Virus record (IMG/VR): IMGVR_UViG_3300017967_000052
Coordinates: 1-44,045 of that record
Length of the DNA: 44,045 bases
Reading direction: 5' to 3' (one strand)
Origin: a virus
Shown here: positions 6,896-44,045 of the stretch, one piece after another
Layout: each line of letters starts with the position of its first letter
Position numbering within the stretch: the first letter of the stretch is position 1
Program-made: the position numbers and the translations under genes
Notes under the pieces: generated by a model
What the model was told of the DNA's origin: nothing
Seen by the model: the letters and a program-made list of their open reading frames with translations, nothing else
Database searches by the model: none

Positions 6896-6900
6896 ACTCT

Positions 6901-6908
6901 TATTTATC
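6901..6908 (-). promoter_or_regulatory. T4-type late promoter octamer GATAAATA, fibre unit
   Basis: The minus strand reads GATAAATA followed by AGAGT and then the ATG at 6895. T4 late promoters are TATAAATA, and T4-like cyanophages are known to use NATAAATA, with transcription starting about six bases after the octamer. That places +1 on the A of the ATG. There is no usable Shine-Dalgarno site between promoter and start. It should drive the 223-residue gene, the S74 fibre and the adhesin. Confidence 0.7.
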
Positions 6909-6931
6909 GCTTTTATTAAATACAATGTTAA

Positions 6932-22000: not shown

Positions 22001-25000
22001 TCGCCTTCCTGATACCCATGATTAGCACTTGTAATTTTACTCTGGTTGTAGTGTCTCATTGACACTGCATAGCTCTTTACTGAATTAGGTCTGTTGATAG
22101 TAATAGTGGTAGGAGTACGTGTTAGTACTTCATAGTCTTGATTATCAAAAGTTTCATAAACATTGATAGAATAACCTGTGCCGTACACATTACTTCTGAT
22201 TATATTATTACCCAACACTGTTACATCAGTTACTGCATCATTAACGATTGTGATGTTGCCGGATACAGCATCTACACTTTGTACTTTTTGTGCTCTGCCA
22301 AACAGTGCAGTTATATTAGCCGCTGTGGCTTTTTGCTCGGCAGTTAAATCCACATTATTAAGATACAAAAAGTCTGTTTGATATTGTGCTGATAATTTGA
22401 TTGATACATTGCCTGCTCCTACTTGAGCAAATCGAGCTGCTACTTCATCAACACCACTTTGCATGTTAATGGTTGCTGTTGCTGGCGATGTATTGGCTGC
22501 ATCCAGGGTCATTGTCACAGTGTCAGTGGTCGCATATCCTGCACCCTTACGTATTAAACCTATATGTGTAACTTCTGCATTCAGTATTGCTGTAGCACCA
22601 GTTACCTCACCGTTGTCTATGGTAACTTCTGGCACAAAGTCGTATCCGTCACCCACACTGGTCATTGTTACTGAAAGGTTACCACGTAGTATAGGTCTCA
22701 CCACTGCTGGGTTACCGGAAGAGCCCACAGTTACTTGTATATCTAATTCTGAATATCCTGCACCACGGTCTTCTATATCTATGTAATCAATTCTGCCTTC
22801 GGAGTCAGTGTGTCCATGTGCAACTGCTAGAGTAGTGTTTGCACCAGTAATTGTAACCGCTATATTTTGATTATCTTTTGCATAATCTGATCCAGGATTA
22901 ATTATTTCAAATCCCACAATTTCGGCACCGGTAATCTCACCAGTTGCTGTTGCGGTGTTACCACTGTCTGGTGCTTGTATTGTTATTTCTGGTGCTGGTG
23001 TTTGAACATTACCTGTGTCAGTAATACTGATGCTTGCAACGTTACCCAAAATGTACGCAGTGCCTGCTGCAACATCTAAATTACCACCATTGCTTGGGCT
23101 GCTGAATGTCACTATAGGTACACTCTGGTATCCCTGACCACCATTTGTGATTTCAACGTTTGCAATACCTCTGGCATTGATAGTCAACACATTTCCTGAA
23201 GCAGTCATGTTGGCATCATATTGTGATACTACACCAGCATTGTCTAATAAACGAATATAATCGCCCACTTCAATTTCACTAAAGTTATTACCTGCTATGG
23301 TAATTTGGTTTGTGGTATCATTTACATTTGTAATTTGCAGACCATTATAATATCTTCCAGTTTCAGGTTCTACATTTGAAATTGTTCTTAGATTACGTGG
23401 TCTGATACTGGCGATTCTGGCTTCCACCATTTGCGGAGCATCAAACGCAGTGATTGTGGTCTGCTTGCTTTGTATAACAGATTCATTGTTCCAAACAACA
23501 ACTTTATCTGACAATGTGGCGTTGTTTAGTGTTAGGAAATAATCCAGATATCTGCCAGTGTTTGGCTCTCCAATCTGGTTAGTGTCTAAATAATTAAACA
23601 AACTGTAGTCAGTGTAAAGTGATACATTACCACCTTCTTCCCTCATCAGGAATTCTGTTTGGGCTGCTGTATTCTCTAGTCTGTATACGTTCCAATCATT
23701 GTTTTCACTTTTTGCAACATGAATTAAATCGCCCTGTTGCGGTTTAAGCAAGACGTTTTCGTCAAATAAATCTGGTAAACTTGCTAGATCAAATGCACGA
23801 TACTTAACATCTTCTGGGTGCACGTAACCTGCATTTGGTATTGTTGGATAATCCTTATCAGTAATACCAGTATGATCTACTTTGCCAGTTACTGGCCAAA
23901 TACTGTATCCTATCTGTCCTGTGGGCTTCTTGACAAATCTATTTTTGTCGTCAATGTCTATAGTAATAACACGATCACTCTTTAGATCAGGTGTTATTTC
24001 AAACGTTCTTTGTGGTGCAATTTTTACTGACAGACCTTCCTGCACAAGTACCACACCTTTAACAGTGCTACCTGGAAGATCTTTCTTTAGTGAATCATCA
24101 AACTCAATTGCGCCACGCTCTATAACTTCTATCTTGCTGCCGGCTGGCAGTGCATAAACTGTTTCGCGTTGTCCTGATAAACTATAATTTTCAGGAGGAT
24201 TTTTAAATGCTGTTAGTAGCTCTTGTGGTAAGTTCTTAACGTCTGGGAACGTGATAGTATTTTGAGTTAAAATAAACCTAGTACTATTCCACTTGAATGT
24301 AATATGCTGACTGGTTTCTGCTTGTATGTCAGAAGCCAAAACAGTACCCACATGAGTCCATGTATTATTGTTTGTTAGTTCTTGTGCTAGATATATTTTT
24401 AATTCATCACGTACCACATAAGCCTGTCCTAATGCACTTGCCAATGGAGGTAAGTTTGCATAAGTGGCAACAACTGGTAATCTTTCTGAATCAGTTAAGT
24501 TTTTAACTCTGGTACCATTAATATAAACTTCTACAAACTCGTATACTCCGTCTTTGCTTAAATTAATATTGTTAGCATCTAGTGGAGAACTCAAATTAAA
24601 TGTTACACTGTTATTGATTAAATCAAATTGATCAGCATTGCCTCTAGGAGAGTTAGTGTCTATAGTAGGGTGGTTTACACTTGTTGTAATGGTGTTTACA
24701 TTACCAGGAACATATACCCAGTTTGTTGTTGTAACATTGTCTATTGTTGCCTGATTTGGTATCGATACTCCATCTATATAAACCTTGACATCTTCCACAC
24801 TTGTGTTATAATCATTAGTATAAACAGTAGTTACTAGTGGGAATCGTTGTTTAGGTTGATACGTACCATTAACCAGGGAAATATTTGCTCCATCAACAAC
24901 AGTAAAATCTTTACCACTTAGTATAATATGACTACCAACAGTACTTCCTTGGTGGCTACTTATTTCTTTGGCTGTTATATTCACATTCAAAGATGCATTA

Positions 25001-28000
25001 CTATTAATTGCATCCACAATATCTGCCACAGTGATGTTTGCAGGAGCAGTGTCTACCAATAATGTAATATTACCTGAACCTGAAATATTATCAGCCAGTG
25101 TAACTGTTACATTAGTTTTATTGGTGTCTATAAAACTGTTGCTGGTATCAATATCTGCGACTGCATTATTTAATAATGTATCAGTATTATTTGACTGAAC
25201 CTCTGCACCTATAACCATTGCACAGGCTTCATTTAATCTATAGCCATTACCTGCATTTGTGACTGTTACACTTTCAATTTTTCCTTCACTGTTAAGATTA
25301 GCCTTGGCTTCTGCTTGTACACCAGTTTTGTCTGCAGGACTGCTTATCACAATCTGTGGTGGAGTATCATAAGTATATCTGGCTTGTAATACTTCTACTC
25401 CTGTTACTGAGTAAGTGATATCTACTGGTGTTCTGGTTGTTATTAATTGTGGCTCTTGTACAATTTCTGATTTTGTTAATTTTAGCTCAACACTCTGTGA
25501 GTTATCCAGATCACCAAATTCACCCGCCTTGAGTGCCCACTCGTCATATACTGTTACATTACCCTGTACAACTGCACTACTACGTGCGATACGTGTTAAA
25601 CTTTCAGCAGTACCTTTACTTTGTATCATTCCACGATAAAAGTCAAATTGTTCTTCATCAGCAACATCTAAATCACGCAAATAATCTCTCTGATTAAATC
25701 CGTATTGCTGTCTGCTTATATCGTATATTTGTTTTTCAACCGGAATAAAGCCAAGTTCAGTATAGCGGCCCATTGTTTCTGCTAAATTATCTAGGTTAGG
25801 CAACAGCTCATCATCATTAACCAGGAAGCCTTCTGTAAATAATTTACCAGTCCAATTTTTTGTTCTTGTTGCTTTAACTTTAATACGTGAGTGTTTCTGA
25901 TATAATAAATCATCATATATCACATCATTAAAATCTGTTTTGTTATCTAAAATTAAAGCATGTTCTACTTCTTTGGTGAACAGCATCACTGCATAAATTT
26001 GGCTTCCTGTTGGCGGTTTAATTTCTATCTTGTTGTTTTCTCTGATAATTTCACATTCTTCTGGAGGGATAACTCCACCGTCCTGATCCAGGATACTAAA
26101 CTGCTCGCGTTCACTACGATTTATTTTTGCAATAAATCCACGTGGTACTTCAAAATTTGCTTTATTGGCTAACGGACTTAGTAATATAGTATTACCTATT
26201 TCCCATTTACCCACAGTCCAGAATAAGAATTGTTTAGCTGCATACTGCCAATTGCGAACCTCACCAATTACAGGATCGTATTCGCCAAAGTCATAACCAT
26301 GACTTTCTTGGTGTCTTCCTAAACTGATTAAAAAGTCATAAACTTCTTGGACTGTTTCATATACTGTATTATAATTAACACGCAGTATCTTGCCTGTGGT
26401 TTCCTGATACAGCACACCTTTTGCACCATTTTGCTGTGGTAGACTAGGTAAGTTAGTCCAACCAGTAGGATCAAAAGTATCTCCCACTGTTAAATTTGCT
26501 TCTGATTGATAGAAACCGTCCCTATATTTAACGATAGTTCCTTTAGTATAAGTTTCATTAGGTCGCCATTGTATAAAATCTACACCTTCACCACCTACTT
26601 CTACGGATTGCCTTCTACCACCAACAACTTTGCTTTCTAAAATTTCAAAATAATTTTTAGTTCTATCATAACCGCGTAAACGATAGCCAGTAGCGGTCTT
26701 TTCTATTAATACACCAGTATAAAAATGTCTGTCCTTGTAGTTACTGCTATGTACAGTCACGTCCACATTATTGTTAGGTATAATTAAACTGGTTGCTTTA
26801 CCGTCATTACTATATTGATCAGTTCTAACAATCATGGTGTCTTTATCGACATAGCCATTCATGCGATGAGCCAGTTTCATATTCAGTGTACGTAGTTGTG
26901 GCGCAAAATCAGTGTCTATGTTAAGACCCTGGAATTTCAACCAACTGTTGATGAATTGAGTGTATCCAACATTTGTTATAAACTTTCCGTCACTATCTCT
27001 ATCACCGTGTATCCTAAAGTGATTTTTATTTGTAAACTTCCAACGTTTTTTGTCCACGTTGGACATTAAGTATCCGCCAACGACTGGCTTATACAAGTTT
27101 GTGGGGTCACTAAACACACTGGCAAATCTACCTGGCTTGGCTAATAGCAATGCTTCAGATTGTACAAAGCCAAAGTTTTCTGATTTTTTCCATGCATATT
27201 CTACTGGGCTAGTATCACCAAATTTCCATTCTTTACTGATATCTCCGATAATACGTAACTCTACTTCTTTTGTACTAGTATATGCGGGGGTTGCTTCTGA
27301 GTTAACAGTCGCACTATTTCGTGCATTGTCTACGTCACTTAAATTAATTTTTAATTTAGCACGTACACCATCACCACTAATTGCCACAGTTGCCTGAGTA
27401 TAGTTACTTCCGGGATTGGTAATAACCACACTGGTAATTTTTCCGTCCTCTATAACAGCATTTGCTGTTGCACCAAATCCATCTCCACTAATTGTGATGT
27501 TTGCTGTAGTATATAAACCACCTTCATCTAAAACTTCGATATTGCCGATTCTGCCCAGTGCAGTTGAACTAGCATAGTAATTACCAGCCCAGTGGTCAAC
27601 ATTTTCTATGCCACCACCCACATGATAAGGGAATGCCGGTTGTAAATTTTCGTCCAACGTACAAACATAATGCCAAATTGGTGCTGTAGGACTATCTGGT
27701 GTTACACTATAACGTACATTAAATCTATTTGTATAACCTGATGCTGCTTCCAGGGTAGCGTCTAATCGATAGTCTTGTATGTACACACCAGTGTGTGCAC
27801 CGCCAGGGCCTGAAGTTCTTAATCCTTCACGTAGTACCCATGGTGATTTTATTCTGACAATCTCACTTGTGTTGTCTGTAGGATCACTATAACCATATGG
27901 ACCATAAACTGGTAGTCCATCAAATGCCCAAGCCACTATAGGAGAATGCTCAGTTGTACTCCATTCTTGTAAGCCTACTATTTCAGGTATTAATACGTGA

Positions 28001-31000
28001 TAGTGGAATAAACCCTTGTTATCAGATTCGTAATTTAGGTCCCTGCGTCTTTCACGACGTACTCTGTCCTCATACCACACACCTTCATTTTGCCAACTGT
28101 TTCCATAGTCAACTCCATACAGAGGTAATCCGTTTACAGCAACAGCAACAGCACCGTTTTTAGCCATTGGCGTGGGATTCGATAGAACAGTGTTTAGTGG
28201 CGTCGTACCAATCACATATGATATAGGCTGTTCTTTAAGTGGCTCTCCATATAAAGTAGTATACTGAGTTAACACATTTTGATCAATAGGCAAGGAATGA
28301 TTAACTATCGCACTGCTTTGTACATATACATTGCTTGAATCGTAACTGACATTTAATCCGTCAACATTTAAGAAACTGCTTGTTTTAAATCCTGAATGAT
28401 TTCCAGTATCGGTATTGACCCACTCTACAGTTTTTCTTGTTGTGCCTGTTGTAAACAATCTATATGGTGAGATCAAGTTACCGTTAGCATCTACAGGTAT
28501 AATTGCTTTTAATCCTTTTCTGCGGAATGGGTTGTTATACAGATAATTTTCATTTTGTAAATTTTCTCTAGGACCTCGACGAATAATACCCTCTTCTAAA
28601 TCGTCCCACATGGCAACATTGGTAACTGAGTAGTCGCTACCATATTGCTCATCCCACCATAGTGGTTTTTCTGTAAAGCCCAACATTTCCCATGGATGGC
28701 TATTAGGGCGATCAGTATCATAATAAAATTCGTAAATGCCTCTCCAGTGTCCTGGGAAGGAATCATCTCCATAGTTCCAGGTCCACTCGTTGTCCTCGTC
28801 ATAAAACTCATTAATAATAGGGTTTACAGGGTTTATATTTGTCCAAACACTAAATCCATGACGTAATAGATCCTGCCATTCTGTATACTTGTAATTATTA
28901 TCGCGGAAGGCGCCACCTCTGACATCAACTGTACTGTAATCCAGTATGCTATTTCTTTCTCTAAACTCTCCTTTAGCACTGTTATAAATTCTGGTTTCAA
29001 AATTCATTAATACATCATCGCGATAATCGCCATATGCTGGAGTTTTACTGCCATCATGTCCTATAATTACTTCTATAGGAGTTTGGAATGTTGAGTCTAA
29101 AACTTTTTCTGGTTGATGTAATGGTAGCAGTCCCATAGTACTAGGCGTAGGAGGACATTGAGCACTATCTCTTTCTGCATCATATAATTTAGCAACAATT
29201 TTATCGCCAGCTTTCAAGTTTGCATTACTTAAAATGTTAATGCTGATTGGTGAGAAACTGCTTATTTCATAATCTTTGTCAATGCACAACAAATTGTCAT
29301 TCAGATAAATTAATAAACTGTTTTCAATTTTATCCAAGTCTGCAGAATTTTTTAGCACAAACTGTGTTTGATTTAGTGCAGCTACAAAAGTTTCTTCCAG
29401 GAAATTATCACCAAATGGCACAATGTATGTTCTGTTGAATACATCTGTACCTATTTTAAAACTTATTAGGTTACGCAAAGTGGTTTCAAGCATCTGCTCA
29501 ACACTTGGACCTTCACCATAATCTGACTCGTACAGTTTTTGTATTTCGTTTCGCAATCTATGTTTGTATTTTACATATTCGTGTCCACAAAATCTTAAAG
29601 CATCTACCAAATTATGTGGTTGGTCGTCTACCAGGAATGCACCCAATACTAAATCATGATTGGTTTGTACTATGGTTCTGGCTTTGTTTACGTTTTTAGG
29701 TCCGTTGGAAAAATTATTACTGCCCAGCGGTTCGCCTGCAAATCCGTCCTGATTAGACATGTACTTAGAAAAATGTTCTAAATATTCTGGTTCACTGATT
29801 TGGCGTATGTCTTGTTTTGTATAGTTATGTCCCCAACTTAATGGTAATTCATATTTGCTGTTACTGTTAATTCTTAATAAACCTGTATCAGTACCTGCTG
29901 ATATTTCTATAAAGTCGCCTGCACTAATACTACCTCCAGTTAGTTCAATATAACCTTCAAGAGTATTACTGTATACAAAATTTTCAAAGTTATTACCATT
30001 AATTTTTACTTCAATGTCATAGCCGCTATTTTTATTAGTGTTGCGTCTGGGTACGCATCCTATACTGTATCTGGTTAGTGAACGATCAATATCGACCTGT
30101 GTCAGTGTATACGTTGTATATACACGCTGTTCATTCACATCAGTTGCATTTTTCCATGCAGAATAAAATTTATTATCACTTAAATTTTTGTAGTACCTGT
30201 AACCATTTATAACTGACGCACTTGATGCATTTAGTGGCGTAAACTTATAAGTTGTTGTGTCCTGGAAATTTTCAAAAACTATTTCGCTTGAGGACTTATA
30301 TTGTTGATATACCAACGGGAAGCCTAACACTTTGTCTTTTACAGTGCTTAAAATACTATCTGATGTTGCAGACCTAGCATAACCAAATATCTTGTTTCCT
30401 TTAAATGTGCTAGAAGGATATTTTGTATCGTCGTCAAGCAAAACGCCACTGTCATCATATAGTTTAAATAACGGTGCTTGATTGGCTTTTACTTTTTCCT
30501 GTCCAATCATCCATTCAACACCGTTGTATACAAACTCCTTACCTATGTTTTCACCACCAGATAATATTTGTACACTTTGATTTTTCTTGATCTCAAAAGG
30601 TATAAAGCCAGAATCGCCATCAACAGTATTTGCTGGATTCAACAACGGATCACCAGCACGTATAACTTCTAAAACACCTGTATTAATATTTAATTTTGCT
30701 GTATAGATGTATTTGTTTGCATCTTTACTTTCGTTAGTTACAATAAATGTGGAGTTTTCCAGCGGTACACTGTCTAGTGTAAAGCCAGGTTTCTGCCCTT
30801 CAATGTCTGCAATAAGTGCACCAGTTACAGCCATAGTGACTGTACCTGCTGTGGTATCAGCATGGTTATAAAGTTCTAGATTTCTATCAAATTCAATAAT
30901 AGGACGTTCTGCACGATACTCTCTGTTAGGTAAACTGTCACCTGCATCCAGGAAGTTATCTCTGTGGTACCAGAAATTAACTCTACTCCAGACGTTTTTA

Positions 31001-32640
31001 TTTTTTGCTCCGCGTTGCTGTATTATATAATCTGCTGAACTGTTTGCTACAGTACCTCCCCAAAAACCATCACCAGTGCCGTCGCCGTCTAGGTCTACGT
31101 CATAACTACGAGTGCCGCCTACAAAATAGTAATCCTTGGGGTTATTAGGATTGACACCTACTTTAGCCTGGGTACTTTGTAAATTAACTGTGCCGTCACC
31201 ATATACAGCATTGCTCATTCTGGCCACTGCACTAAAGTCTACACCTTTAAATGTAAGTGTAGGGTTAGCTGCAAACAGAGTAGAATTGAAATCTATATTA
31301 TCATTTAAAACAACTTGTGCAGCAATGCCGGCAGGTACATCAACAGGTATAACTTGTTTTACTGTGCTAGTAAAATCATAACCAGTAACACTTTGCCCTA
31401 CTTTTATGTTTGTGGTAGTGTCAACCAAAATTGTATCAGTAACAATAGCGTTTCCATGCTGGGCTACCATTTCAGTGACGTTTGCTGTTGCTTGTACAAT
31501 GGTATCAAATACTAAAATATCTGTTTCGCCAGTATAGCCTGCCCCACCGCTTACAGTTGCTTCTATACCATTAAAAGTATTCAGTGTTATATTAGCCTGA
31601 GCTAGTGTGGCTGGTTGCTCAGTGCCAGATGAATCTATATATGTTCTGCCAAATGCATTTATAATTGTAACAATATTACTATAATCTGTTAAACTCTGTT
31701 CACCCAGATTAGACTCTATTGTTTTGGCTAATGAGATAACGTTTGTTGTTTGTTCAAATTCATTAGTATATTCTATTCTGCCTTCTGGATATGCTAGGGC
31801 TAAATTCGCATAATCAGAACCAGTGTCATCTTCGTACACATAAACATTATCATAAATTAAAATCTCTGGGTCTACATAACCTCTACCGTGAGAAGTTATG
31901 TGTAACTCTTGTACATAAGCCGCACTATGAACTGCTTCTGATAAATCGTTAGTAAAATAGTCAAACTCTGCTTCTTTTACGTCTGTAAATCTAGTGCTAA
32001 AGTTATCTTTTTTGTTTACCAGTTGAATGTTTTCGCCAACACCTGTAACAATATATTCGCTAATAGTTAATGTTTGTGGTGTAACATACTCACCGTCAAA
32101 TCTAACAATCATACCATTACGGAAAGGTTTGCCGGATGGTGGTGTAAAATGTGCTTTACCAATTACATCAGTATGTATGTCAATAGGATTGGTTGCTGTA
32201 CCACGCACATTAATAGTTGAAGGGCCTTCAGGATACCAATAGTATTCTGAATAATTTAGTAACTTATCAGGATCTATTGGTGGTAAAAATGCACTGTATC
32301 TATCACCGAACAGTTTGTTATGATCACTTACATCTACACCATATGTTTTTAGAGTATCTACTAATTCATCATAAAATATTAAATTTTCACTATCCCCAGT
32401 ATCTGGATTGATAGTGTTGACTGTAGGACTCAGTCCATAAAATCTTTTAGTTACTGTGGGCTCTTGAAGGTACTGTCCGCTAAGGTTTATGTCATCACTG
32501 CTTCTGGAACCAATATAACCCTGAATAGATTCTGTATTAGATTTACTAAACAGTTGTTCGACTGTGCTCTCAAAAAAGTTTTTAATAGCAGTAGTTTGAT
32601 GTACTACTGGTAACTTTTTATATAACTTTTTGTCTGACAT
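16024..32640 (-). CDS. Giant virion structural protein (5538 residues), probable baseplate-periphery or adhesion protein
   Basis: One uninterrupted frame from ATG 32640, with an AAGGG ribosome site (32651-32655) overlapping the gp6 stop. The N-terminus has SIQGYIGSRSSDDINLSG and then YSEYYWYPEGP, and near 1190 comes IGHDGSKTPAYGDYRDD, with HPWEMLGFTEKPLWW following. I recall these as conserved in a family of very large T4-like-phage structural proteins (unverified). About 1460-1670 resembles a YHYH domain: NGLPLYG, FHYHVLIPE, FDGLPVYGPYGY, WHYVCTLDE. G-x-G-Y repeats occur near 1707-1760 and 3150-3400. About 4920-5150 looks PA14-like (PSDGLYEVSGYSDDGLHVWI). The C-terminus has two related Cys-containing modules around an Asp-rich linker (about 5420-5477). 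It follows gp25 and gp6, where T4 has gp7 and gp8. A structural role is well supported; the detailed function is inferred. Confidence 0.82.
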   Translation of the reverse strand: MSDKKLYKKLPVVHQTTAIKNFFESTVEQLFSKSNTESIQGYIGSRSSDDINLSGQYLQEPTVTKRFYGLSPTVNTINPDTGDSENLIFYDELVDTLKTYGVDVSDHNKLFGDRYSAFLPPIDPDKLLNYSEYYWYPEGPSTINVRGTATNPIDIHTDVIGKAHFTPPSGKPFRNGMIVRFDGEYVTPQTLTISEYIVTGVGENIQLVNKKDNFSTRFTDVKEAEFDYFTNDLSEAVHSAAYVQELHITSHGRGYVDPEILIYDNVYVYEDDTGSDYANLALAYPEGRIEYTNEFEQTTNVISLAKTIESNLGEQSLTDYSNIVTIINAFGRTYIDSSGTEQPATLAQANITLNTFNGIEATVSGGAGYTGETDILVFDTIVQATANVTEMVAQHGNAIVTDTILVDTTTNIKVGQSVTGYDFTSTVKQVIPVDVPAGIAAQVVLNDNIDFNSTLFAANPTLTFKGVDFSAVARMSNAVYGDGTVNLQSTQAKVGVNPNNPKDYYFVGGTRSYDVDLDGDGTGDGFWGGTVANSSADYIIQQRGAKNKNVWSRVNFWYHRDNFLDAGDSLPNREYRAERPIIEFDRNLELYNHADTTAGTVTMAVTGALIADIEGQKPGFTLDSVPLENSTFIVTNESKDANKYIYTAKLNINTGVLEVIRAGDPLLNPANTVDGDSGFIPFEIKKNQSVQILSGGENIGKEFVYNGVEWMIGQEKVKANQAPLFKLYDDSGVLLDDDTKYPSSTFKGNKIFGYARSATSDSILSTVKDKVLGFPLVYQQYKSSSEIVFENFQDTTTYKFTPLNASSASVINGYRYYKNLSDNKFYSAWKNATDVNEQRVYTTYTLTQVDIDRSLTRYSIGCVPRRNTNKNSGYDIEVKINGNNFENFVYSNTLEGYIELTGGSISAGDFIEISAGTDTGLLRINSNSKYELPLSWGHNYTKQDIRQISEPEYLEHFSKYMSNQDGFAGEPLGSNNFSNGPKNVNKARTIVQTNHDLVLGAFLVDDQPHNLVDALRFCGHEYVKYKHRLRNEIQKLYESDYGEGPSVEQMLETTLRNLISFKIGTDVFNRTYIVPFGDNFLEETFVAALNQTQFVLKNSADLDKIENSLLIYLNDNLLCIDKDYEISSFSPISINILSNANLKAGDKIVAKLYDAERDSAQCPPTPSTMGLLPLHQPEKVLDSTFQTPIEVIIGHDGSKTPAYGDYRDDVLMNFETRIYNSAKGEFRERNSILDYSTVDVRGGAFRDNNYKYTEWQDLLRHGFSVWTNINPVNPIINEFYDEDNEWTWNYGDDSFPGHWRGIYEFYYDTDRPNSHPWEMLGFTEKPLWWDEQYGSDYSVTNVAMWDDLEEGIIRRGPRENLQNENYLYNNPFRRKGLKAIIPVDANGNLISPYRLFTTGTTRKTVEWVNTDTGNHSGFKTSSFLNVDGLNVSYDSSNVYVQSSAIVNHSLPIDQNVLTQYTTLYGEPLKEQPISYVIGTTPLNTVLSNPTPMAKNGAVAVAVNGLPLYGVDYGNSWQNEGVWYEDRVRRERRRDLNYESDNKGLFHYHVLIPEIVGLQEWSTTEHSPIVAWAFDGLPVYGPYGYSDPTDNTSEIVRIKSPWVLREGLRTSGPGGAHTGVYIQDYRLDATLEAASGYTNRFNVRYSVTPDSPTAPIWHYVCTLDENLQPAFPYHVGGGIENVDHWAGNYYASSTALGRIGNIEVLDEGGLYTTANITISGDGFGATANAVIEDGKITSVVITNPGSNYTQATVAISGDGVRAKLKINLSDVDNARNSATVNSEATPAYTSTKEVELRIIGDISKEWKFGDTSPVEYAWKKSENFGFVQSEALLLAKPGRFASVFSDPTNLYKPVVGGYLMSNVDKKRWKFTNKNHFRIHGDRDSDGKFITNVGYTQFINSWLKFQGLNIDTDFAPQLRTLNMKLAHRMNGYVDKDTMIVRTDQYSNDGKATSLIIPNNNVDVTVHSSNYKDRHFYTGVLIEKTATGYRLRGYDRTKNYFEILESKVVGGRRQSVEVGGEGVDFIQWRPNETYTKGTIVKYRDGFYQSEANLTVGDTFDPTGWTNLPSLPQQNGAKGVLYQETTGKILRVNYNTVYETVQEVYDFLISLGRHQESHGYDFGEYDPVIGEVRNWQYAAKQFLFWTVGKWEIGNTILLSPLANKANFEVPRGFIAKINRSEREQFSILDQDGGVIPPEECEIIRENNKIEIKPPTGSQIYAVMLFTKEVEHALILDNKTDFNDVIYDDLLYQKHSRIKVKATRTKNWTGKLFTEGFLVNDDELLPNLDNLAETMGRYTELGFIPVEKQIYDISRQQYGFNQRDYLRDLDVADEEQFDFYRGMIQSKGTAESLTRIARSSAVVQGNVTVYDEWALKAGEFGDLDNSQSVELKLTKSEIVQEPQLITTRTPVDITYSVTGVEVLQARYTYDTPPQIVISSPADKTGVQAEAKANLNSEGKIESVTVTNAGNGYRLNEACAMVIGAEVQSNNTDTLLNNAVADIDTSNSFIDTNKTNVTVTLADNISGSGNITLLVDTAPANITVADIVDAINSNASLNVNITAKEISSHQGSTVGSHIILSGKDFTVVDGANISLVNGTYQPKQRFPLVTTVYTNDYNTSVEDVKVYIDGVSIPNQATIDNVTTTNWVYVPGNVNTITTSVNHPTIDTNSPRGNADQFDLINNSVTFNLSSPLDANNINLSKDGVYEFVEVYINGTRVKNLTDSERLPVVATYANLPPLASALGQAYVVRDELKIYLAQELTNNNTWTHVGTVLASDIQAETSQHITFKWNSTRFILTQNTITFPDVKNLPQELLTAFKNPPENYSLSGQRETVYALPAGSKIEVIERGAIEFDDSLKKDLPGSTVKGVVLVQEGLSVKIAPQRTFEITPDLKSDRVITIDIDDKNRFVKKPTGQIGYSIWPVTGKVDHTGITDKDYPTIPNAGYVHPEDVKYRAFDLASLPDLFDENVLLKPQQGDLIHVAKSENNDWNVYRLENTAAQTEFLMREEGGNVSLYTDYSLFNYLDTNQIGEPNTGRYLDYFLTLNNATLSDKVVVWNNESVIQSKQTTITAFDAPQMVEARIASIRPRNLRTISNVEPETGRYYNGLQITNVNDTTNQITIAGNNFSEIEVGDYIRLLDNAGVVSQYDANMTASGNVLTINARGIANVEITNGGQGYQSVPIVTFSSPSNGGNLDVAAGTAYILGNVASISITDTGNVQTPAPEITIQAPDSGNTATATGEITGAEIVGFEIINPGSDYAKDNQNIAVTITGANTTLAVAHGHTDSEGRIDYIDIEDRGAGYSELDIQVTVGSSGNPAVVRPILRGNLSVTMTSVGDGYDFVPEVTIDNGEVTGATAILNAEVTHIGLIRKGAGYATTDTVTMTLDAANTSPATATINMQSGVDEVAARFAQVGAGNVSIKLSAQYQTDFLYLNNVDLTAEQKATAANITALFGRAQKVQSVDAVSGNITIVNDAVTDVTVLGNNIIRSNVYGTGYSINVYETFDNQDYEVLTRTPTTITINRPNSVKSYAVSMRHYNQSKITSANHGYQEGDVVRIRTNKISGMFKIEHATQNKFTIPAKYVPGFTDGEIISEGLEIKTVGNHGISPLYAASGKRIAVHFAEPLYYNKVYPISSLTADKLFVDDYWPRDARTHVYYEHKQKLLNGSSPYQEGVVSLANATNTIAVTENIRMADHLIQYTSNSDVVSSAHLTWHGNYLEVSPTALPGNTSISTEVSVQRQMYRGGNRYAMLTTIDHDKVTLNGSTVSVPSYNNPQAVASSLNREMEKRRQFTNTDNGNFGLRFAMLKNPNTAIYEDFSAGEISDYGPYIRDKNIIELLSGGKLSATGEMSIGNTDEERIDPNFSKANKQVGPHKGLTYTDENTGVEYCWSPALQRYKVKYIPPDVGDVDEREDDRAEDHEYQTKNKEYEYKEGDQSNTTIVDPDILTSIPGSREGVIIGAPGYTQPVYDMQANVSYTVNSNVSVIPKYRLAPNNYNVYEVYEGVQNDDEDLYYILVDKVPPPLVEHDFYATVSFWSDFNTLPLTNYYYDNEIIPTVNVSNQITNADDPIRLQNTGYVLSLGEVEPAAYIGLQKVTEPFAVSGGNGTDAQQNILAAAQMRVSSPDLNTGATIEVETNGYDSFLLWTGGLKPATRIPDAAGPGRLPGYDGTPSTLGFGRGYYQPGVNDFPADYPETATLTYDRPIQRLAYSRNVPVYPESRNYVFDMWEHFGNVVANIDVVSGESNVTITDDTVANVQVDDWVIISGTEIGTITEVNGNVITLSQPLTADLARNESFAVEGDGTRFTQEQYQDAVDNGLTSIGAYPLDELILRTINPEFGVQGAGDGKLVAENIFVACFWTEDFTYVDQIVGWDYNNLYADGTPKEITEDYDGTVVRFKYIRLTELPETAVTRRLIPDTGYAGKGWTNRQVDTVTLDFTDANEDEIWELFNPDNYTAGSTGGEGGPRTVNVGDRGNTTQPTDAGTTVTNDGTLIVDDPFKNDDLVPTTPVGPILTGSIFDGLPGPCVPPDDPSKNTVPNVNGDIACGEVDVVTKYVQLSAAQINDENTGRVILGPDESWGYHSFKVFGEGDVSLFFNTVQHIPGVATSEYTQSDTPLGFVLVQHQDQYPADGTDEDKAAWVSDIRNILFSTEHSGSNDSNDGDQIIYYGFENFDQRTEESRDLFVEDQLGLAVDHPWFTHTPIPGDGSQYWNGSHLPSGAYFSDEVPLKDILKTGGGAKQNVIVEGIGALTKYGVDCSQGQWLTLFIMTQCTDTSGGVRGPADGETIKGDPDKVWSAVIKYQTEKIILDNTDDPEDGTDDNGEVVCAYENASSRAYQQGMFITEYQASSDNGYFGQHDDNGEYDKGTGRNNLDNIYFDHSPPSTVLSWHPDTPYKSGTPKEVTGNFSPYSKQATYTSKIKSGWYSSFSSWNFNYDAYNRERRTLVGKGYWLCPSDGLYEVSGYSDDGLHVWISSAWGGFQNHPYGGKYAHRIGVNDLGEITKWGTTAGPITYEDGQEVGEYFTEDKPLDKNTLTSESATGGYNWKTYAKGGNHRYNGKPGYGTWTTYEANNSYMDSKFYHHENSVLRTGWLTTDHESSSSNQTGIDYPNRCRANPFSCRVLTELKGGEYYLVRVIAGNNRGPGYGRFTWRNITNGTQGAMTFGGRYCPDDNPSEVDETQTGNGAETTTDTSLTVDPGWRFVAEREGDVTWTYSVTYGTTLIESGQRTQKPYVLGQTGPGTGARRVYSFSLNTNTVQAGLLGSVKGADDKETSGDPDDGGDDNTASAQDKAYQKCIADNGANDAKQKANDAMAGIAVDWTEDDIPGLVCYYKSYGRHARDVTGSLAEQVEEAAAADTAPPAEAGTILEEGCATTMSFDKDPETGENLYYYTGKYYYKVADGEGGYTRQEEDSGDRCPPKDTIVGSQDEEDWFNGGGTPDNDDSDEGDTQIDGADDGTDDDGGDSGDDGTVNDTDDGTGTGSGTGSGYPAAGTVLAQICETKVINVLGTNFVINTGMLIQQVADGNGGSSEIKVVNLGECPIGTTGFA
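16128..16135 (-). promoter_or_regulatory. Possible internal late promoter GATAAATA before the 3022-residue gene
   Basis: The minus strand reads GATAAATA, then CAGGT, then an in-frame ATG at 16122, all inside the last 35 codons of the 5538-residue gene. The five-base spacing to ATG is the same as at the gp25 and 223-residue starts. It could supply an independent late transcript for the 3022-residue gene, with a leader of about 120 bases, or a 32-residue C-terminal peptide ending at 16024. One or two chance copies of the octamer are expected on this strand, so this one is uncertain. Confidence 0.4.
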
Positions 32641-35600: not shown

Positions 35601-36820
35601 AAACTATTGCCCACGCTGTAAGTTAAACTAAAGCGAACAGTTAATGAATAATCTCTGCCTTGTGCATTTTGATAAGGAATTTGTATACTGACGTTTCTGG
35701 CATCTTCTGGTTGTATTGTGTAACGTGAAGGGTCGCTAATGCGATGCCAAAATCTGTATATACCCACTGGTACATTACCAAAATTACCGTCTGTAAATCT
35801 TAATCTAACACCAGTTGTTCCTGTATTTTCTATTGCGTATAGGTTTCTGGTATTTAAACTGGTGCTGTTGTAATTAATTGTTTGGCCCACAGTGTTAGGC
35901 ACACGGCTCCATTTGTTTAATGGAATACCTGAGCTGTTTATTTCTTGTAGGTAAACATCATTCTCTGTGATATTTGGTTTGTCAATATCTTCCAAACGAT
36001 TTTCTATAGGGTTTGTATAATTAAAATCTTCAAACTCTAATACACCCTGACGGAAAAATACAAAAAATCCAGTATCATCACTGCTGAGTCCACCACCATC
36101 GTTTCTGTAAATCATGTTTAACAGGTTCGTAGGATCTGGATGGCGCTCATAAAAATGACTGTTGTCTTTGAATTCAGGGTTTACAACATTGAACGGCTTG
36201 TCTCTGCCGTTTACTTTTAAATTAAAATTATAAACAATCGGTGCTGCTTGTGGTGTATTAAGTTGATATAGTTCTGTTCTAATACCACCCACGATGCCCT
36301 GTTTGATAGGGGAACTGAATCGGTTAGTCTTACTCATTGCAGCGTTCATTACAGTAATGAATTGTTCGTAACTTTGATTGTTGTTTGCATCGTCCCAGTA
36401 AATTGTTTTGTTACTTAGGTCAGTACCCAAACTGTCTGTTAGGGGCTCGCTTGTTTTAATACTAGTAATCTTCATTAATCCGCTTGCTGGTATATTTCTC
36501 TTAGGATTGTAACCCAACATACGTGCTAGTTTAAATACACTTTCACGACTCTCTGCTGTCTCTAGGAAGTTTTCCCTGGTATTGACATCCATTCTGAATG
36601 CTAAACTTTGACTTAGGTATGCTAACAATTCAATGATTGCGATAAACTCTGAACTTTCAATGTAGTCGTTGAAGTTTTCTGGGAAGTTGGCTCTTACATA
36701 CTCCACTAATGCACCACGGATGGTGTCAAAATCGTAGGCCTGGAAATTTATTTCACTGTATGCTTTATAGGCAATTTTCCAATCTTCTGCCGCGAATAAG
36801 TTTTGCTGTCTACTAGCCAT
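32654..36820 (-). CDS. 6: Baseplate wedge protein gp6, enlarged
   Basis: A 1388-residue homologue of T4 gp6, the wedge protein that forms the ring joining neighbouring baseplate wedges. Residues 1-120 carry the conserved start: FDTIRGALVEYVRANFPENF, then DYIESSEFIAIIELLAYLSQ, RMDVNTRENFLETAESRESV and LARMLGYNPKRNIPASG. The C-terminal 110 residues carry the other conserved end, with NSYFDVNNWEFGETFYFTEL, THIHQ-like YIHQRLGSSIGSIVILP and a final IISRLDNQTL. T4 gp6 has 660 residues, so roughly 700 extra residues lie between these ends, mostly beta-rich segments with virion-surface character. The start ATG overlaps the gp25 stop as TAATG, implying translational coupling. An AAGGG ribosome site lies within the end of gp25. 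Confidence 0.93.
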   Translation of the reverse strand: MASRQQNLFAAEDWKIAYKAYSEINFQAYDFDTIRGALVEYVRANFPENFNDYIESSEFIAIIELLAYLSQSLAFRMDVNTRENFLETAESRESVFKLARMLGYNPKRNIPASGLMKITSIKTSEPLTDSLGTDLSNKTIYWDDANNNQSYEQFITVMNAAMSKTNRFSSPIKQGIVGGIRTELYQLNTPQAAPIVYNFNLKVNGRDKPFNVVNPEFKDNSHFYERHPDPTNLLNMIYRNDGGGLSSDDTGFFVFFRQGVLEFEDFNYTNPIENRLEDIDKPNITENDVYLQEINSSGIPLNKWSRVPNTVGQTINYNSTSLNTRNLYAIENTGTTGVRLRFTDGNFGNVPVGIYRFWHRISDPSRYTIQPEDARNVSIQIPYQNAQGRDYSLTVRFSLTYSVGNSLPPETVAAIKERAPNTYYTQNRMVSAQDYNVFPQSQNSNITKLKAVNKTHAGHSRYIDLNDPTGTYQNVDTFADDAFLYVEDKKQTDNVILNSNTTALDVVASVLPNRLKSLGMSNFAYYGARNVWTNPVYGGSVNNFKFTPQDNVTWNCLPIKEISNTGYMKEEFSTGSKNVLVTNNIRSRQFKPNTFMKWRDPEDPSIYKWVRIISVENGGQLNAGISTSNGPWTLSEEVEAGWQLAETIVTIRSLYTKIEAQLIEAAIKNRETFGLGYDFIADAWYIIPSSDLTTVVKEGHYKLDSSNRGAHSWILLMEYSPIDQNSYRYTLTSRSQDYVVQSVADLKFYNVKNVKVVDRTNKSSQDTITFTTANARPADTETFSWDGSTQTWQNEATNTFHRPQANRVNLPLRSRDTTWKDVNATWVSNFGILRPSQVSPQLIAEDNNYVKDASITLNTYKEVGAITQDSNVVIGSNIGQVTSLPNKFRIRFNNTTFGENIVKVAGGNTFVTYRQIPTGSTYGTEEIFVAKVGQSSAYSWGVNGSMENTSVTGRLTLLDYDATKQAGNLLYSNIQENDMHWSKDGSGIISQDKLNITYLTNKSNLEQPVKWHVTDVYRESDGYTDPRKVKVAPYDSDSDLVPDDPRQFAKFVGVNDLILFEYYQDLNGYTYDRPVMGHILDYRGESTISVDNPRNLISRGSDILNTTQLRSVDWILVDTLSIARALENKSYASGMVVYVADEEKVYQLKPSSTAINSEILLVPSKEHFVKHGRGKTQNTQAKLINDCFIRWQHVAPNDVRIDPSISNIVEMLVLTSSYYSDVVKWQAQPTVDFPLEPTSNELATEFQGLNTYKSASDSLVFRSAKFKLLFGDYAKSQYKARFRVVKLSDQLSDNELKTQIISTINSYFDVNNWEFGETFYFTELSTYIHQRLGSSIGSIVILPKTTTGKFGEMFQVQAEANELFISTATVDDIEIISRLDNQTLRTDR

Positions 36821-37194
36821 TATTGTAACCCTTCAGTAATTTCCCTTGTATATTCTAAGTAAAGTTGTTCTACATCGCCCTGTGGTAGAATTTCTATATT
36901 GATCTCAATTCTTATAGCATGGTCTAAAACATATATAGATGTATTTTTATGCTCCACTCTAGGGTCGCGGCCAAGTATTTTGACTACATCATCACGTATT
37001 TGACCTTCCAGCATGGGTGTACTAGGATCCATAACAATATCCCAAATAATGCTACCATATTCTGGTCTCATCACACGCTCGCCACGCTTGGTATAAAACT
37101 CATTCAGCAAATCACGTTTCACTAATTCACTGTCCACCAATGTATATGGAGCTCTTACTCTGTTTATAGTACTAAAACCCTTGAACTTTGCCAT
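36820..37194 (-). CDS. 25: Baseplate wedge protein gp25
   Basis: A 124-residue homologue of T4 gp25, which helps sheath-to-baseplate attachment and wedge assembly and is conserved in contractile systems, including type VI secretion TssE. Diagnostic segments are TKRGERVMRPEYGSIIWDIV (about residues 38-57), the region ending GQIRDDVVKILGRDPRV, and the C-terminal EYTREI. Length matches the T4 protein (132). The ATG at 37194 is chosen over a TTG at 37221, because the extra nine residues would be encoded by the GATAAATA promoter sequence. The gene is first in a unit with gp6 and the 5538-residue giant, and its stop overlaps the gp6 start. The predicted transcription start is on the ATG, so the mRNA may be leaderless. 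Confidence 0.93.
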   Translation of the reverse strand: MAKFKGFSTINRVRAPYTLVDSELVKRDLLNEFYTKRGERVMRPEYGSIIWDIVMDPSTPMLEGQIRDDVVKILGRDPRVEHKNTSIYVLDHAIRIEINIEILPQGDVEQLYLEYTREITEGLQ

Positions 37195-37199
37195 ACTGT

Positions 37200-37207
37200 T
37201 ATTTATC
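37200..37207 (-). promoter_or_regulatory. T4-type late promoter octamer GATAAATA, gp25 unit
   Basis: The minus strand reads GATAAATA, then ACAGT, then the gp25 ATG at 37194. This is the same layout as ahead of the 223-residue protein: identical octamer, five bases, four of them the same (A-AGT). With T4 late-promoter spacing, +1 is the A of the ATG. It restarts late transcription just after the opposed plus-strand unit. Confidence 0.72.
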
Positions 37208-37209
37208 GT

Positions 37210-37226
37210 AACTATTAACAATAGTT
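37210..37226. repeat. AT-rich inverted repeat beside the gp25 late promoter
   Basis: Perfect seven-base arms, AACTATT and AATAGTT, around a three-base centre, beginning two bases upstream of the late promoter octamer. It has no T-run in the orientation needed for a strong terminator of minus-strand transcription. It also lies between two divergent promoters, so a binding site or a weak hairpin are both possible. Confidence 0.4.
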
Positions 37227-37246
37227 TTAATTAGGGTCCAAAATTG

Positions 37247-37275
37247 TTGACATTTGATACAAAGTGTGCTTAAAT
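37247..37275 (+). promoter_or_regulatory. Sigma70-type promoter with extended -10 for the plus-strand gene
   Basis: The consensus -35 TTGACA (37247-37252) is followed after 17 bases by TTAAAT (37270-37275), which matches the -10 in four of six positions and is preceded by TGC, an extended -10 element. This differs completely from the GATAAATA late motif used by the other genes. It fits early transcription by unmodified host RNA polymerase, with a start near 37282. Confidence 0.62.
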
Positions 37276-37309
37276 ACTATTAAGCATTTAGAAATAAATG
37301 TGAAGCCGG

Positions 37310-37327
37310 ATTTCATTGCCATGAAAT
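37310..37327 (+). other. Leader hairpin before the plus-strand gene
   Basis: Perfect seven-base arms ATTTCAT and ATGAAAT enclose the four-base loop TGCC, in the transcribed leader about 30 bases before the start codon. There is no following T-run, so it is not a terminator. It could affect mRNA stability or simply be chance in AT-rich DNA. Confidence 0.35.
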
Positions 37328-37358
37328 TCTCAACGTTAACGTGCAAAGGTACGACACA

Positions 37359-37601
37359 ATGCGTAAAATTGCTAGGAAGTTCGAAGAAATTTGGGCTAAG
37401 GCAGAAGAACGTAACGGTCAATACGGGCAGCGATACTTTAAGTGCTACAATCAGTACAAGCGATATGTGAGTATGGGCATTTATGACTCAGAAACTAAAA
37501 AGTATGTGTTGTTTGATACCATCAACCTTGCAGGTAACTTTAGATATAATTCTAAAGAAGTTCCTGCAGAGTTTAACGAGATGGAAAAATTGATCGACTA
37601 A
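37359..37601 (+). CDS. Small protein of unknown function, opposite strand to the late genes
   Basis: An 80-residue protein, the only plausible plus-strand gene in the window. ATG 37359 is chosen because AAAGG (37345-37349) sits nine bases ahead of it; an in-frame GTG at 37341 would add six residues and overlap that site. The N-terminal half is basic and helical-looking (KIARKFEEIWAKAEERN, then Tyr-rich QYGQRYFKCYNQYKRY). The C-terminal half includes MGIYDSETKKYVLFDTINLA and ends acidic. There is one Cys, no membrane segment and no signal peptide. It has its own sigma70-type promoter and terminator, so it forms a self-contained unit between gp5 and gp25, convergent with gp5 and divergent from gp25. 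I do not recognise the family. An early host-interaction role is suggested only by the promoter type. Confidence 0.75.
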   Translation: MRKIARKFEEIWAKAEERNGQYGQRYFKCYNQYKRYVSMGIYDSETKKYVLFDTINLAGNFRYNSKEVPAEFNEMEKLID

Positions 37602-37604
37602 TTG

Positions 37605-37629
37605 AATCCCGGCTTGTCCGGGATTTTTT
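37605..37629 (+). terminator. Intrinsic terminator of the plus-strand gene
   Basis: Eight-base-pair stem AATCCCGG (37605-37612) and CCGGGATT (37618-37625), loop CTTGT, followed by a T-run to 37629. It begins three bases after the stop codon. On the minus strand the same hairpin is followed by CAATTAG, not T, so it should act only in the plus direction. Its tail reaches the gp5 stop codon at 37628-37630. Confidence 0.88.
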
Positions 37630-40330
37630 ATGCAGCAGTGTGTGCGTCCAGGGCGGCCTGCAATCGGTCTGCCAAATCGTCAAAGTTAGCACTGCCCGGC
37701 AAGTAACCTGCATCAGTGATATAACTGGTTACATCCATATCATCTGGGCATTGGAACAAAATAGATTCAAATCTTCTCATGCCAGCCAAGCCAGGCTGAA
37801 TAACTGGTGACTCTCCTGGTGCATTTGGTGCTGTCTTCCAGGATTGCATTTCCCTTAGGACATTACCTTTTGCTACAGCATATCCAATAGTGTTGCTTGC
37901 GTCTATATCACTTAAACCATTTAGTTTTGATAACACATCACTCTTTAAAAAGTTTTCTGTACCAATTTGTCTGGCAAAATTTGACATTGCCAGTGTTTCG
38001 TTTGCAGTTAACGGTGTTTTTACTGCACTTGAAATATCATTAAAACTTTGTGTTAAATCACCCACAAGTCCCAGTGTTGCTCCTGCAGGTCCTAAACCAC
38101 CAGCAAAGTCTACCAGTTTGTTACCTGCAGCATCCTGGAATATAGTACCTGGACCATCCTGTATCATTTGTATACCTGACTCGCTTAACAGTTGTCCTAG
38201 TTGTGCACCATTTTGTGCTTGTGCCACTGCTTGCTGTATTTTGTTTTTCATGTTAGCAATTTTAGGGAAGTCTAAATCCATTGGCAGATTCAATGAATCA
38301 AGTGCAAACTGTTTTAGTTGTGCTTCCATTTCTTTTAATTGCTTGGCAACACCAATTACTTTTTGTGCTAATGCATTTGTGGTTGGGAATCTGATAGGAG
38401 GTAATGCTATTTGTATACCTGCAACAAGTCCTGCCAATCCACTGATTGCCGCTAAATCAAATTCTGATAATGCTTTAAGGTTGCCGGCGATATCTCCCAT
38501 GGCTTCAAAGTTGGGAATGCCTGCCGCAAGATCGCCTGCCGCATCTTTTACTGCACCAGTTGCGGCATCCACTGCACCTTGTGCTACACCTTGTGCTTTG
38601 TCGTAAAGTCCTTGTACTTGGTCTACTGCCTGTGATGCACCACCAGTGATAGGGTTTCCATTCTCATCTGTGTAGCCGGTGCCTTTAAGGTAACCGTTAG
38701 GAGTGTTTACATTTACAGGCTTTCCGCTCATGTCCACAGCCGCGGCTGGCAGTTGTTCTATCAGTTTGGGATCTGGTGCTGGCGCTTTTCCACTTTCAGC
38801 AACAGGGTCATATTTGGCATGTCCCTTAAACGGCTCTGTTGTGATCAACTTACTCACAATGGTTTTTATTTTGTCTTTTTTGCCAGTTCTTTCACCAGCA
38901 GTAGGTGCGGATGTTTTTCCTTCCATAGCCGCATCACGATCAAATTTTGGTGGGTCTTTGGGATTGTCTTCGTGTTCGTTAGTACCAATTTGCGGAGCCG
39001 CAATGGCTGGCAATGCTGGAATTGCAGGTGGTCCGCCACTGTTTAATAATATCAAGGGTGCTATAATACTGGTAGGTGCGCCACTAGTAACATTAAACCC
39101 TGCGGCACTTAACACACTGGTTGGCAATGTGCTTTGCATTTTGATAGGACCAGTTGCTGCAAGTAAGTCCATGCCCAGTGGTCCACTGGCTGTGGCTGCA
39201 ACTCTGCTACCTGCACTGATATCCACATCACCACCGTTTGCTGTCAGTTGGGTGTTCAATCCTGCATATAAACTTAAATCAGCAGTACCTTCTATTCTGA
39301 CATCACCGCCGTTACCTAGTGGTGGGATACCTAAAGCACCAACATCTGGTATGCCTAAATATTGATCTCCTGAGTTATCTCCAGCGGCTTTGATGTGTAC
39401 ATTTTGTCCTGCTTCTATATTAATGTTTTTATCTGCACGTAGGTCAAAATTACCTTTTGCTCTCATAGCAATGGTTCCTTCACTGTGCATGTATATGTCG
39501 CCGTAAGTATTTAATTCAAGCCATGCTGTACCTTTGCGGTTTATAATATAAACAATACCACTGGTATCGTCCATTAAAAGTTGATTACCGCCAGCAGTTC
39601 TTAATCTAACCAACCTGCTGTCCAGTTTATCGTCCATGATTAATTGGTGTCCGCCTAGGCGGTGTCCAGTTTCTTTATTGTCTGGATCTTTAGGACCAGG
39701 TGTCAGGATTCCATAAACATCATTTATGTCTCCTCTACGCATACCTGATGTTCCTGCACCACGCAACGGATCATTAATTAATCCTTGTGTTACGATACCT
39801 TCTGCTATGTCAACATGCAGTGGACGAGTTGCGTCATTGTGTGTTACACGTTCGTCAAATTTGTTCTTTTCTGCAACCGGCATTAGCATACTTGGGTCGC
39901 TGTAACTTTTACCAGCAGGCATGCCAGGCACCATGTGGGTCATTCTGTCAGGGAAAATACAACTTATAATGTAACCCAGTTTGCTGTTGCCATCACCAAA
40001 TGCAACCAAAACCAAATTACCCTCATCTGGGGGTGGCATCCACAACCCGTAACTTTTTAATGTGTCAGTATAACTTTCAATATTTTTACCAACTTTGTTA
40101 GGGTTTGTACTGCCTGCAAATGGAGAAGTCCAAAAGCAAGGATATGTTGTACTGTCTTCTCCGCCTTTGTTAAGTGATGGAATTTCTACTTCGTATCTGC
40201 CTGAACGATGTTGGTCTAATGGCGACCTGATGATACCCACATAGATGCCCATTAGCGGGTGAGCTGAGTCAGCCGCTTTCTGGCTCCTATTACTGTAGTA
40301 TCTACCACCTACATCGTTGTTGGATATCAT
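37628..40330 (-). CDS. 5: Baseplate hub spike protein gp5, without lysozyme domain
   Basis: A 900-residue gp5/VgrG-type protein. Residues about 25-130 form the OB-fold region (MGIYVGIIRSPLDQHRSGRY, then YGLWMPPPDEGNLVLVAFGD, then GYIISCIFPDRMTHMVPG). About 225-440 is spike-like beta-helix sequence with short repeats such as GGHQLIMDD, GGNQLLMDD, GTIAMRAKGNFDLRADKNIN and IEAGQNVHIKA. T4 gp5 carries a lysozyme between these parts; no T4-lysozyme-like segment is seen here. The C-terminal half is instead Ala-, Pro- and Gln-rich with helical stretches (about 570-720) and ends in a compact acidic region. The AGGAGG ribosome site (40340-40345) lies in the hub gene, and the ATG overlaps that gene's stop as TAATG. 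Together with the hub protein it should form the central puncturing device. Confidence 0.85.
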   Translation of the reverse strand: MISNNDVGGRYYSNRSQKAADSAHPLMGIYVGIIRSPLDQHRSGRYEVEIPSLNKGGEDSTTYPCFWTSPFAGSTNPNKVGKNIESYTDTLKSYGLWMPPPDEGNLVLVAFGDGNSKLGYIISCIFPDRMTHMVPGMPAGKSYSDPSMLMPVAEKNKFDERVTHNDATRPLHVDIAEGIVTQGLINDPLRGAGTSGMRRGDINDVYGILTPGPKDPDNKETGHRLGGHQLIMDDKLDSRLVRLRTAGGNQLLMDDTSGIVYIINRKGTAWLELNTYGDIYMHSEGTIAMRAKGNFDLRADKNINIEAGQNVHIKAAGDNSGDQYLGIPDVGALGIPPLGNGGDVRIEGTADLSLYAGLNTQLTANGGDVDISAGSRVAATASGPLGMDLLAATGPIKMQSTLPTSVLSAAGFNVTSGAPTSIIAPLILLNSGGPPAIPALPAIAAPQIGTNEHEDNPKDPPKFDRDAAMEGKTSAPTAGERTGKKDKIKTIVSKLITTEPFKGHAKYDPVAESGKAPAPDPKLIEQLPAAAVDMSGKPVNVNTPNGYLKGTGYTDENGNPITGGASQAVDQVQGLYDKAQGVAQGAVDAATGAVKDAAGDLAAGIPNFEAMGDIAGNLKALSEFDLAAISGLAGLVAGIQIALPPIRFPTTNALAQKVIGVAKQLKEMEAQLKQFALDSLNLPMDLDFPKIANMKNKIQQAVAQAQNGAQLGQLLSESGIQMIQDGPGTIFQDAAGNKLVDFAGGLGPAGATLGLVGDLTQSFNDISSAVKTPLTANETLAMSNFARQIGTENFLKSDVLSKLNGLSDIDASNTIGYAVAKGNVLREMQSWKTAPNAPGESPVIQPGLAGMRRFESILFQCPDDMDVTSYITDAGYLPGSANFDDLADRLQAALDAHTAA

Positions 40331-43995: not shown

Positions 43996-44003
43996 TATTT
44001 ATC
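43996..44003 (-). promoter_or_regulatory. T4-type late promoter octamer GATAAATA, gp48-hub-gp5 unit
   Basis: The minus strand reads GATAAATA, then TTGCT, then a predicted +1. The transcript would have a 14-base leader containing AGGAGA before the ATG at 43976. Here the arrangement is the ordinary one, in contrast to the two starts where the ATG itself is at the predicted +1. Confidence 0.7.
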
Positions 44004-44010
44004 AGTATCA

Positions 44011-44026
44011 TTAAAACTAGTTTTAA
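44011..44026. repeat. 16-base perfect palindrome upstream of a late promoter
   Basis: TTAAAACTAGTTTTAA is its own reverse complement and lies seven bases upstream of the late promoter octamer. It could be a protein-binding site or part of the 3' end of the gene beyond the window. The remaining bases to the right edge (44027-44045) show nothing further. Confidence 0.4.
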
Positions 44027-44045
44027 CAAAACTCAGATTCTGGAC

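Follow-up and report, generated by a model that had tools for sequence, protein, structure and literature searches.

The stretch of viral DNA analyzed here, called the window, is 44,045 nucleotides (nt) long (IMG/VR record IMGVR_UViG_3300017967_000052, positions 1 to 44,045) and carries, at positions 37247 to 37629 between the baseplate genes gp25 and gp5, a plus-strand unit made up of a promoter, a ribosome-binding site, an open reading frame (ORF) for 80 amino acids (aa), and a terminator. The encoded basic protein belongs to a previously undescribed phage protein family, which we name p80. Its gene is the only one on the plus strand of the window. All the remaining real genes are minus-strand genes, and where a product could be identified it is structural: gp6, gp25, gp5, the tail fiber, and other proteins of the virion and baseplate. 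The divergent neighbor gp25 (36820 to 37194, minus strand) encodes a baseplate wedge protein (phrog_43), and the convergent neighbor gp5 (37628 to 40330, minus strand) encodes the baseplate hub and tail lysozyme (phrog_13211).

The p80 gene, the core gene of the cassette, occupies positions 37359 to 37601 on the plus strand, with an ATG start that is conserved in relatives and a ribosome-binding site, AAAGG, at 37345 to 37349. Its promoter, TTGACA-17-TTAAAT (37247 to 37275), has a −35 box at 37247 to 37252 that is kept in relatives and, after a 17-bp spacer, a −10 box at 37270 to 37275 that is no perfect TATAAT but is extended by an upstream TG-C. Two hairpins fold in the leader, the first (GCATTTA-GAAA-TAAATGT, 37284 to 37301) about 4 nt past the predicted transcript start (approximately 37281) and the second, of 9 bp, at 37308 to 37329. 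An intrinsic terminator overlapping the gp5 stop codon is predicted at 37604 to 37629 in the plus direction only (−12.8 kcal/mol; z score, −3.8; 0/200 shuffles). No minus-strand terminator was predicted in the window at this junction, where read-through is blocked in the plus direction only. The original prediction, made from the window alone, had named a sigma70-type promoter, a ribosome site, an 80-residue gene, and a plus-only terminator, all opposite to every other gene, and each of these parts was confirmed. A generic promoter and terminator scan of the window listed neither the p80 promoter nor the terminator; the promoter was skipped because the scan requires an A at position 2 of the −10 box, which is missing here. 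Both elements are credible because of the comparative evidence from relatives.

A single p80 protein used as the query retrieved 6 viral loci, and a small alignment retrieved 48. To avoid picking only p80 carriers, 80 loci were gathered through gp25 alone. Merging of near-identical junctions gave 51 distinct gp25-selected junctions and 74 distinct junctions overall. p80 is present in 37 of the 51, and an opposite-strand cassette in 50; among the 74, PA5oct included, p80 lies at the same site and on the same strand in 58. By content, these 74 junctions comprise 21 with p80, hydrolase, and coiled coil, 20 with p80 alone, 16 with p80 and coiled coil, 12 with hydrolase and coiled coil, one with p80 and hydrolase, one with a coiled coil, and three with none, two of the last being from GAP32-like phages. 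The cassette order is invariable (p80, then a lipase-like alpha/beta hydrolase, then a coiled-coil protein), and 235 of 235 family ORFs are opposite in strand to gp5 and gp25. The match to the p80 profile spans the core G-[IL]-Y-D-x3-K-K-Y. A frame conserved in relatives and under purifying selection, on which the original prediction had staked itself, is what was found: the ratio of nonsynonymous to synonymous substitution rates (dN/dS) is 0.02 to 0.12 in comparable pairs, indicating strong purifying selection. These values are about equal to or below those of gp25, a rough comparison, as the gp25 frames include some upstream sequence. On the gp6 tree the presence of p80 changes about 2 times, and the distances between p80 sequences track those between gp6 sequences (Mantel r, 0.85; 0/999 permutations). 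By these comparisons p80 is vertically inherited, and no copy was found in the bacterial genome contigs searched.

In relatives, the gp5-gp25 junction mostly keeps the unit that the original prediction proposed might be lacking or swapped there; it is the companions of p80 that vary. The hydrolase has matches among alpha/beta hydrolases and lipases, and the Ser, Asp, and His of its lipase-like motifs are invariant; the coiled-coil gene usually abuts or overlaps the 3′ end of gp5. In almost every cassette consisting of p80 alone, a terminator lies at the gp5 stop or ahead of it (19 of 71 cassettes overall; 0.4% in shuffles). Across all cassette loci (L001 to L134), the cassette end almost never combines a terminator with the coiled-coil gene. 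Some junctions hold additional early genes. Four loci (L003 to L006) have, between gp25 and p80, a plus-strand gene for a Gcw_chp outer-membrane-protein-like product (Pfam PF09694; E value, 4e−18), apparently a captured bacterial gene; L016/L018 have three extra plus-strand genes at the junction; and the L037 junction has a 155-aa early gene, a relative of which sits elsewhere in the L039 contig.

The idea in the original prediction of an inserted accessory gene, taken here as a mobile, moron-like one that only recently came to lie between gp5 and gp25, draws on its opposite strand, its own promoter and terminator, and the readiness of the junction to accept other early genes. It describes the companions in part, since hydrolase, coiled-coil gene, and other early genes vary. 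It fails for p80 itself because relatives carry the gene at the same site and on the same strand, its divergence tracks that of gp6, and its presence changes so few times; its absence from the bacterial genomes searched speaks against mobility as well. Recent insertion, very unlikely in our judgment, was rejected for p80 within the span of this clade. Its conservation and inheritance mark p80 as an ancient core gene of these viruses.

The p80 promoter belongs to a recurrent class. Among 70 upstream regions, 47 have a TTGACA/TATAAT-type promoter scoring at least 10/12, against 7% of shuffles; TTGAC occurs in the best site of 49, of which a single one departs from a spacer of 16 or 17. In the clade of the window, the −10 sequence reads TTAAATAC, and the spacer is 17 bp throughout. 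In two relative contigs, the same class precedes genes for DNA polymerase, exonuclease, ATPase, HNH nuclease, GTP cyclohydrolase, an SbcC-like protein, single-strand binding protein (SSB), and the late sigma factor, and on this basis the p80 promoter is assigned to an early or replication class. RpoD-like early and ATAAATA late promoters have been reported in jumbo phage CBB (PMC5259590).

The leader hairpins were assessed in 51 leaders, with relatives counted as independent. In 26-nt windows at the predicted transcript start a hairpin lies exactly there (mean z score, −2.85; 92% below −1), and windows 10 nt to either side have z scores near 0. A second hairpin follows the first in about half of the leaders. 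In a sister clade of 8 sequences, where the equivalent second hairpin covaries, 95.5% of cells in the two hairpins remain paired and 14 carry compensatory, double-sided changes (0/500 shuffles), a signal abolished when the partner is slid; in the clade of the window, one pair has a double change. At other intergenic sigma70-type sites in two contigs, a 5′ hairpin of this kind is confined to a few genes (DNA polymerase, SSB, and an 88-aa gene). An Rfam search gave nothing reliable. Bacterial mRNAs can be shielded by stem-loops at either end (PMC7509114), and by analogy the two ends of the p80 mRNA are likely protected by its hairpins. Unlike these p80-first cassettes with their structured leader, hydrolase-first cassettes (L060, L065, L066, L069, L075, L080, L082, L084, L087, L089, L091, and L095) have a TATAAT-like box 5 to 7 nt before the start codon, from which their early mRNA is predicted to be leaderless.

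The divergent late promoter of gp25 is of another class, as the original prediction had also held. Its motif, GATAAATA, lies on the minus strand at 37200 to 37207, 5 nt before the gp25 ATG, and also at two other gene starts in the window; none was found upstream of p80 on the plus strand. In 59 of the 74 junctions the gp25 ATG follows GATAAATA after exactly 5 nt, as an ATG does at 10 of 36 GATAAATA sites in two contigs and the window (window positions 37194 to 37207 and 6895 to 6908), so that late mRNAs from these sites are predicted to be leaderless. A late upstream element, ATTAAAAC...GTTTTAAT, stands 6 to 7 bp from GATAAATA and in consensus form is an 18-bp palindrome. Its copy at this junction, the near-palindrome ATTAACAATAGTTTTAAT (consensus, ATTAAAACTAGTTTTAAT), is at 37214 to 37231, between the two divergent promoters; further copies lie at 44010 to 44027 and, weaker, at 6915 to 6932. 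The pair of GATAAATA and palindrome recurs at 43996 to 44027, ahead of a virion gene starting at 43976. T4 late promoters are not known to have a −35 element; those described here, by comparison, carry the ATTAAAACTAGTTTTAAT near-palindrome upstream of GATAAATA. The early p80 promoter and the late gp25 promoter are 40 bp apart, so close together that both would rarely be occupied at once. The palindrome, the two leader hairpins, and the near-universal conservation of the unit go beyond the original prediction. Elsewhere in the window, gp6 is adjoined by two giant genes on the minus strand, one of 5538 codons (16024 to 32640) and the other of 3022 (6932 to 16000).

The p80 protein of the window has an isoelectric point of 9.0 (9.0 to 9.8 across six members). 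Structure prediction and profile search, the steps proposed with the original prediction, gave a fold and no relatives in the libraries: the model has the order alpha-beta-beta-beta-alpha with a predicted local distance difference test score of 84, and Foldseek against PDB and viral models returned no significant match. Neither Pfam (no family at E values up to 10), PHROGs, nor NCBIfam has a match, and PADLOC antiphage defense models matched 0 of 51 p80 members. Double-stranded-RNA-binding domains have their elements in this order, but the best hit to such a domain falls short of significance (template modeling score, 0.40; E value, 0.93), and the likeness of the model is a lead only. For the molecular task of p80, we would guess at host takeover or transcript control. 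A more specific and quite tentative proposal, to which we give a low probability, is that p80 is an RNA-binding early regulator that would bind the hairpin leader or a sense-antisense duplex; if true, its binding of structured RNA would time the early-to-late switch at the divergent promoter pair.

With gene conservation, strand, order, promoter classes, leader hairpin, and terminator established by sequence comparison, these observations are best explained, with good though not full confidence, by a conserved, vertically inherited early cassette that faces the late baseplate operon in a large group of T4-related jumbo phages. We infer its early timing, RNA stability, promoter exclusion, and antisense effect as follows. 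Host RNA polymerase would read the sigma70-type promoter soon after infection, and a short mRNA with a 5′ hairpin and a 3′ terminator hairpin would yield p80, a small basic nonvirion protein; in relatives, the hydrolase and coiled-coil protein would be made from the same transcript. Under the phage late sigma factor, gp25 and gp6 would then be driven from the divergent GATAAATA promoter, which lies 40 bp off, and the p80 cassette would be switched off or opposed when that promoter fires. The junction would act as an early-to-late strand switch, since the promoters are probably too close for joint occupancy. Late read-through from gp5, as the original prediction noted, could add antisense RNA to p80, which is possible because no minus-strand terminator is predicted here.

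Several observations weigh against this explanation. The −10 box of the window itself (TTAAAT) is weak, and the close relatives L025, L077, and L085 keep TTAAATAC without a recognizable −35 box, so a phage-specific or middle promoter class is possible; seven other loci (L093, L117, L121, L123, L124, L126, and L130) have no clear TTGAC promoter. Cassettes that end in the coiled-coil gene lack a terminator, so not all units are self-contained, and read-through there is blocked in neither direction. What is known of the phage is the sequence of a 44-kb fragment.

Other explanations account for parts of the same evidence. The fixed place of p80 among baseplate genes across deep divergence would suit a minor virion or baseplate assembly factor that is made along with the late proteins in spite of its strand; the opposite strand, the early-class promoter, the plus strand without an upstream late motif, and the PA5oct homologue, which has no mass-spectrometry note of the kind borne by its baseplate neighbors, make this highly improbable. 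Covarying leader hairpins, a self-contained short transcript with a terminator, and likely late antisense reading are what would be expected if the leader or the late antisense RNA were the functional product, a regulatory RNA, with the protein secondary. This too is quite unlikely, given that strong constraint acts on the protein (dN/dS mostly below 0.1), whereas the hairpins vary freely in sequence between clades, and that hydrolase-first cassettes have no leader at all. The strong early promoter adjoining gp5 also recalls the T4 oriE replication origin, with an early opposite-strand transcript priming replication and p80 acting like RepEB. We regard such an origin as unlikely: no iteron direct repeats were found in window positions 36700 to 38300, the main coding strand does not switch here, the flanking genes both being on the minus strand, and the p80 profile (A3) matched in the whole T4 record only a three-stop frame at 65 kb (E value, 0.015), far from repEA and repEB.

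These results give a name to a core protein family of widespread, mostly uncultured jumbo phages, absent from Pfam, PHROGs, NCBIfam, PADLOC, and PDB searches, and show that a gene may run counter to a late operon and still be long established there. With early and late promoters within 40 bp around a conserved palindrome, the early-to-late switch would be testable at one short site.

Among known phages, the Rak2-like jumbo phages (CBB, GAP32, and Hallingskeid) share the gp6-gp25-gp5 order, but GAP32 and Hallingskeid lack the opposite-strand cassette and have after gp25 a lysozyme-like gene in the same orientation. In Phosso (L136, 4010 to 4918) and Atu_ph07 (L135, 4336 to 4908), opposite-strand genes likewise diverge from gp25 immediately upstream of it, and their junctions gave no acceptable p80 match by profile. 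Salicola phage SCTP-2 gp269 is a distant p80-like protein (E value, 9e−7 over 53 positions) with the VYNYKTKKY core common to both; it differs in lying near the terminase gene rather than at a gp25-gp5 junction and in having an extra basic N-terminal tail. The comparison system for the arrangement is repEA/repEB at oriE of T4 (PMC3016281), small early genes with an early promoter on the strand opposite late baseplate gene 5. An early-mode promoter likewise opposes late gp5 transcription here, as known by sequence and comparison, although repEA and repEB are nested inside gene 5 and p80 sits beside gp5. Since neither homology nor iterons were found, the cassette is best read as somewhat like repEA/repEB in working, neither homologous to them nor a member of the RepEA/RepEB-oriE system. 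The closest counterpart is EST35_0131 of the cultured jumbo phage PA5oct (Wroclawvirus, Arenbergviridae; GenBank accession number MK797984). DNA-level comparison with phages matched only gp6 and gp25 pieces, and BLAST of p80 against the phage collection gave only PA5oct-like matches (E value, 0.6); this homologue was recovered by synteny and pairwise comparison. It differs from the window p80 in sharing 34% identity over 50 residues only and in being followed by a different, 94-aa plus-strand gene, and it is annotated as hypothetical. Like the window p80, EST35_0131 is 80 aa long, lies between gp25 and gp5 on the opposite strand, and has its own TTGACG-17-TATACT promoter and 5′ hairpin, which makes PA5oct a cultured carrier of p80.
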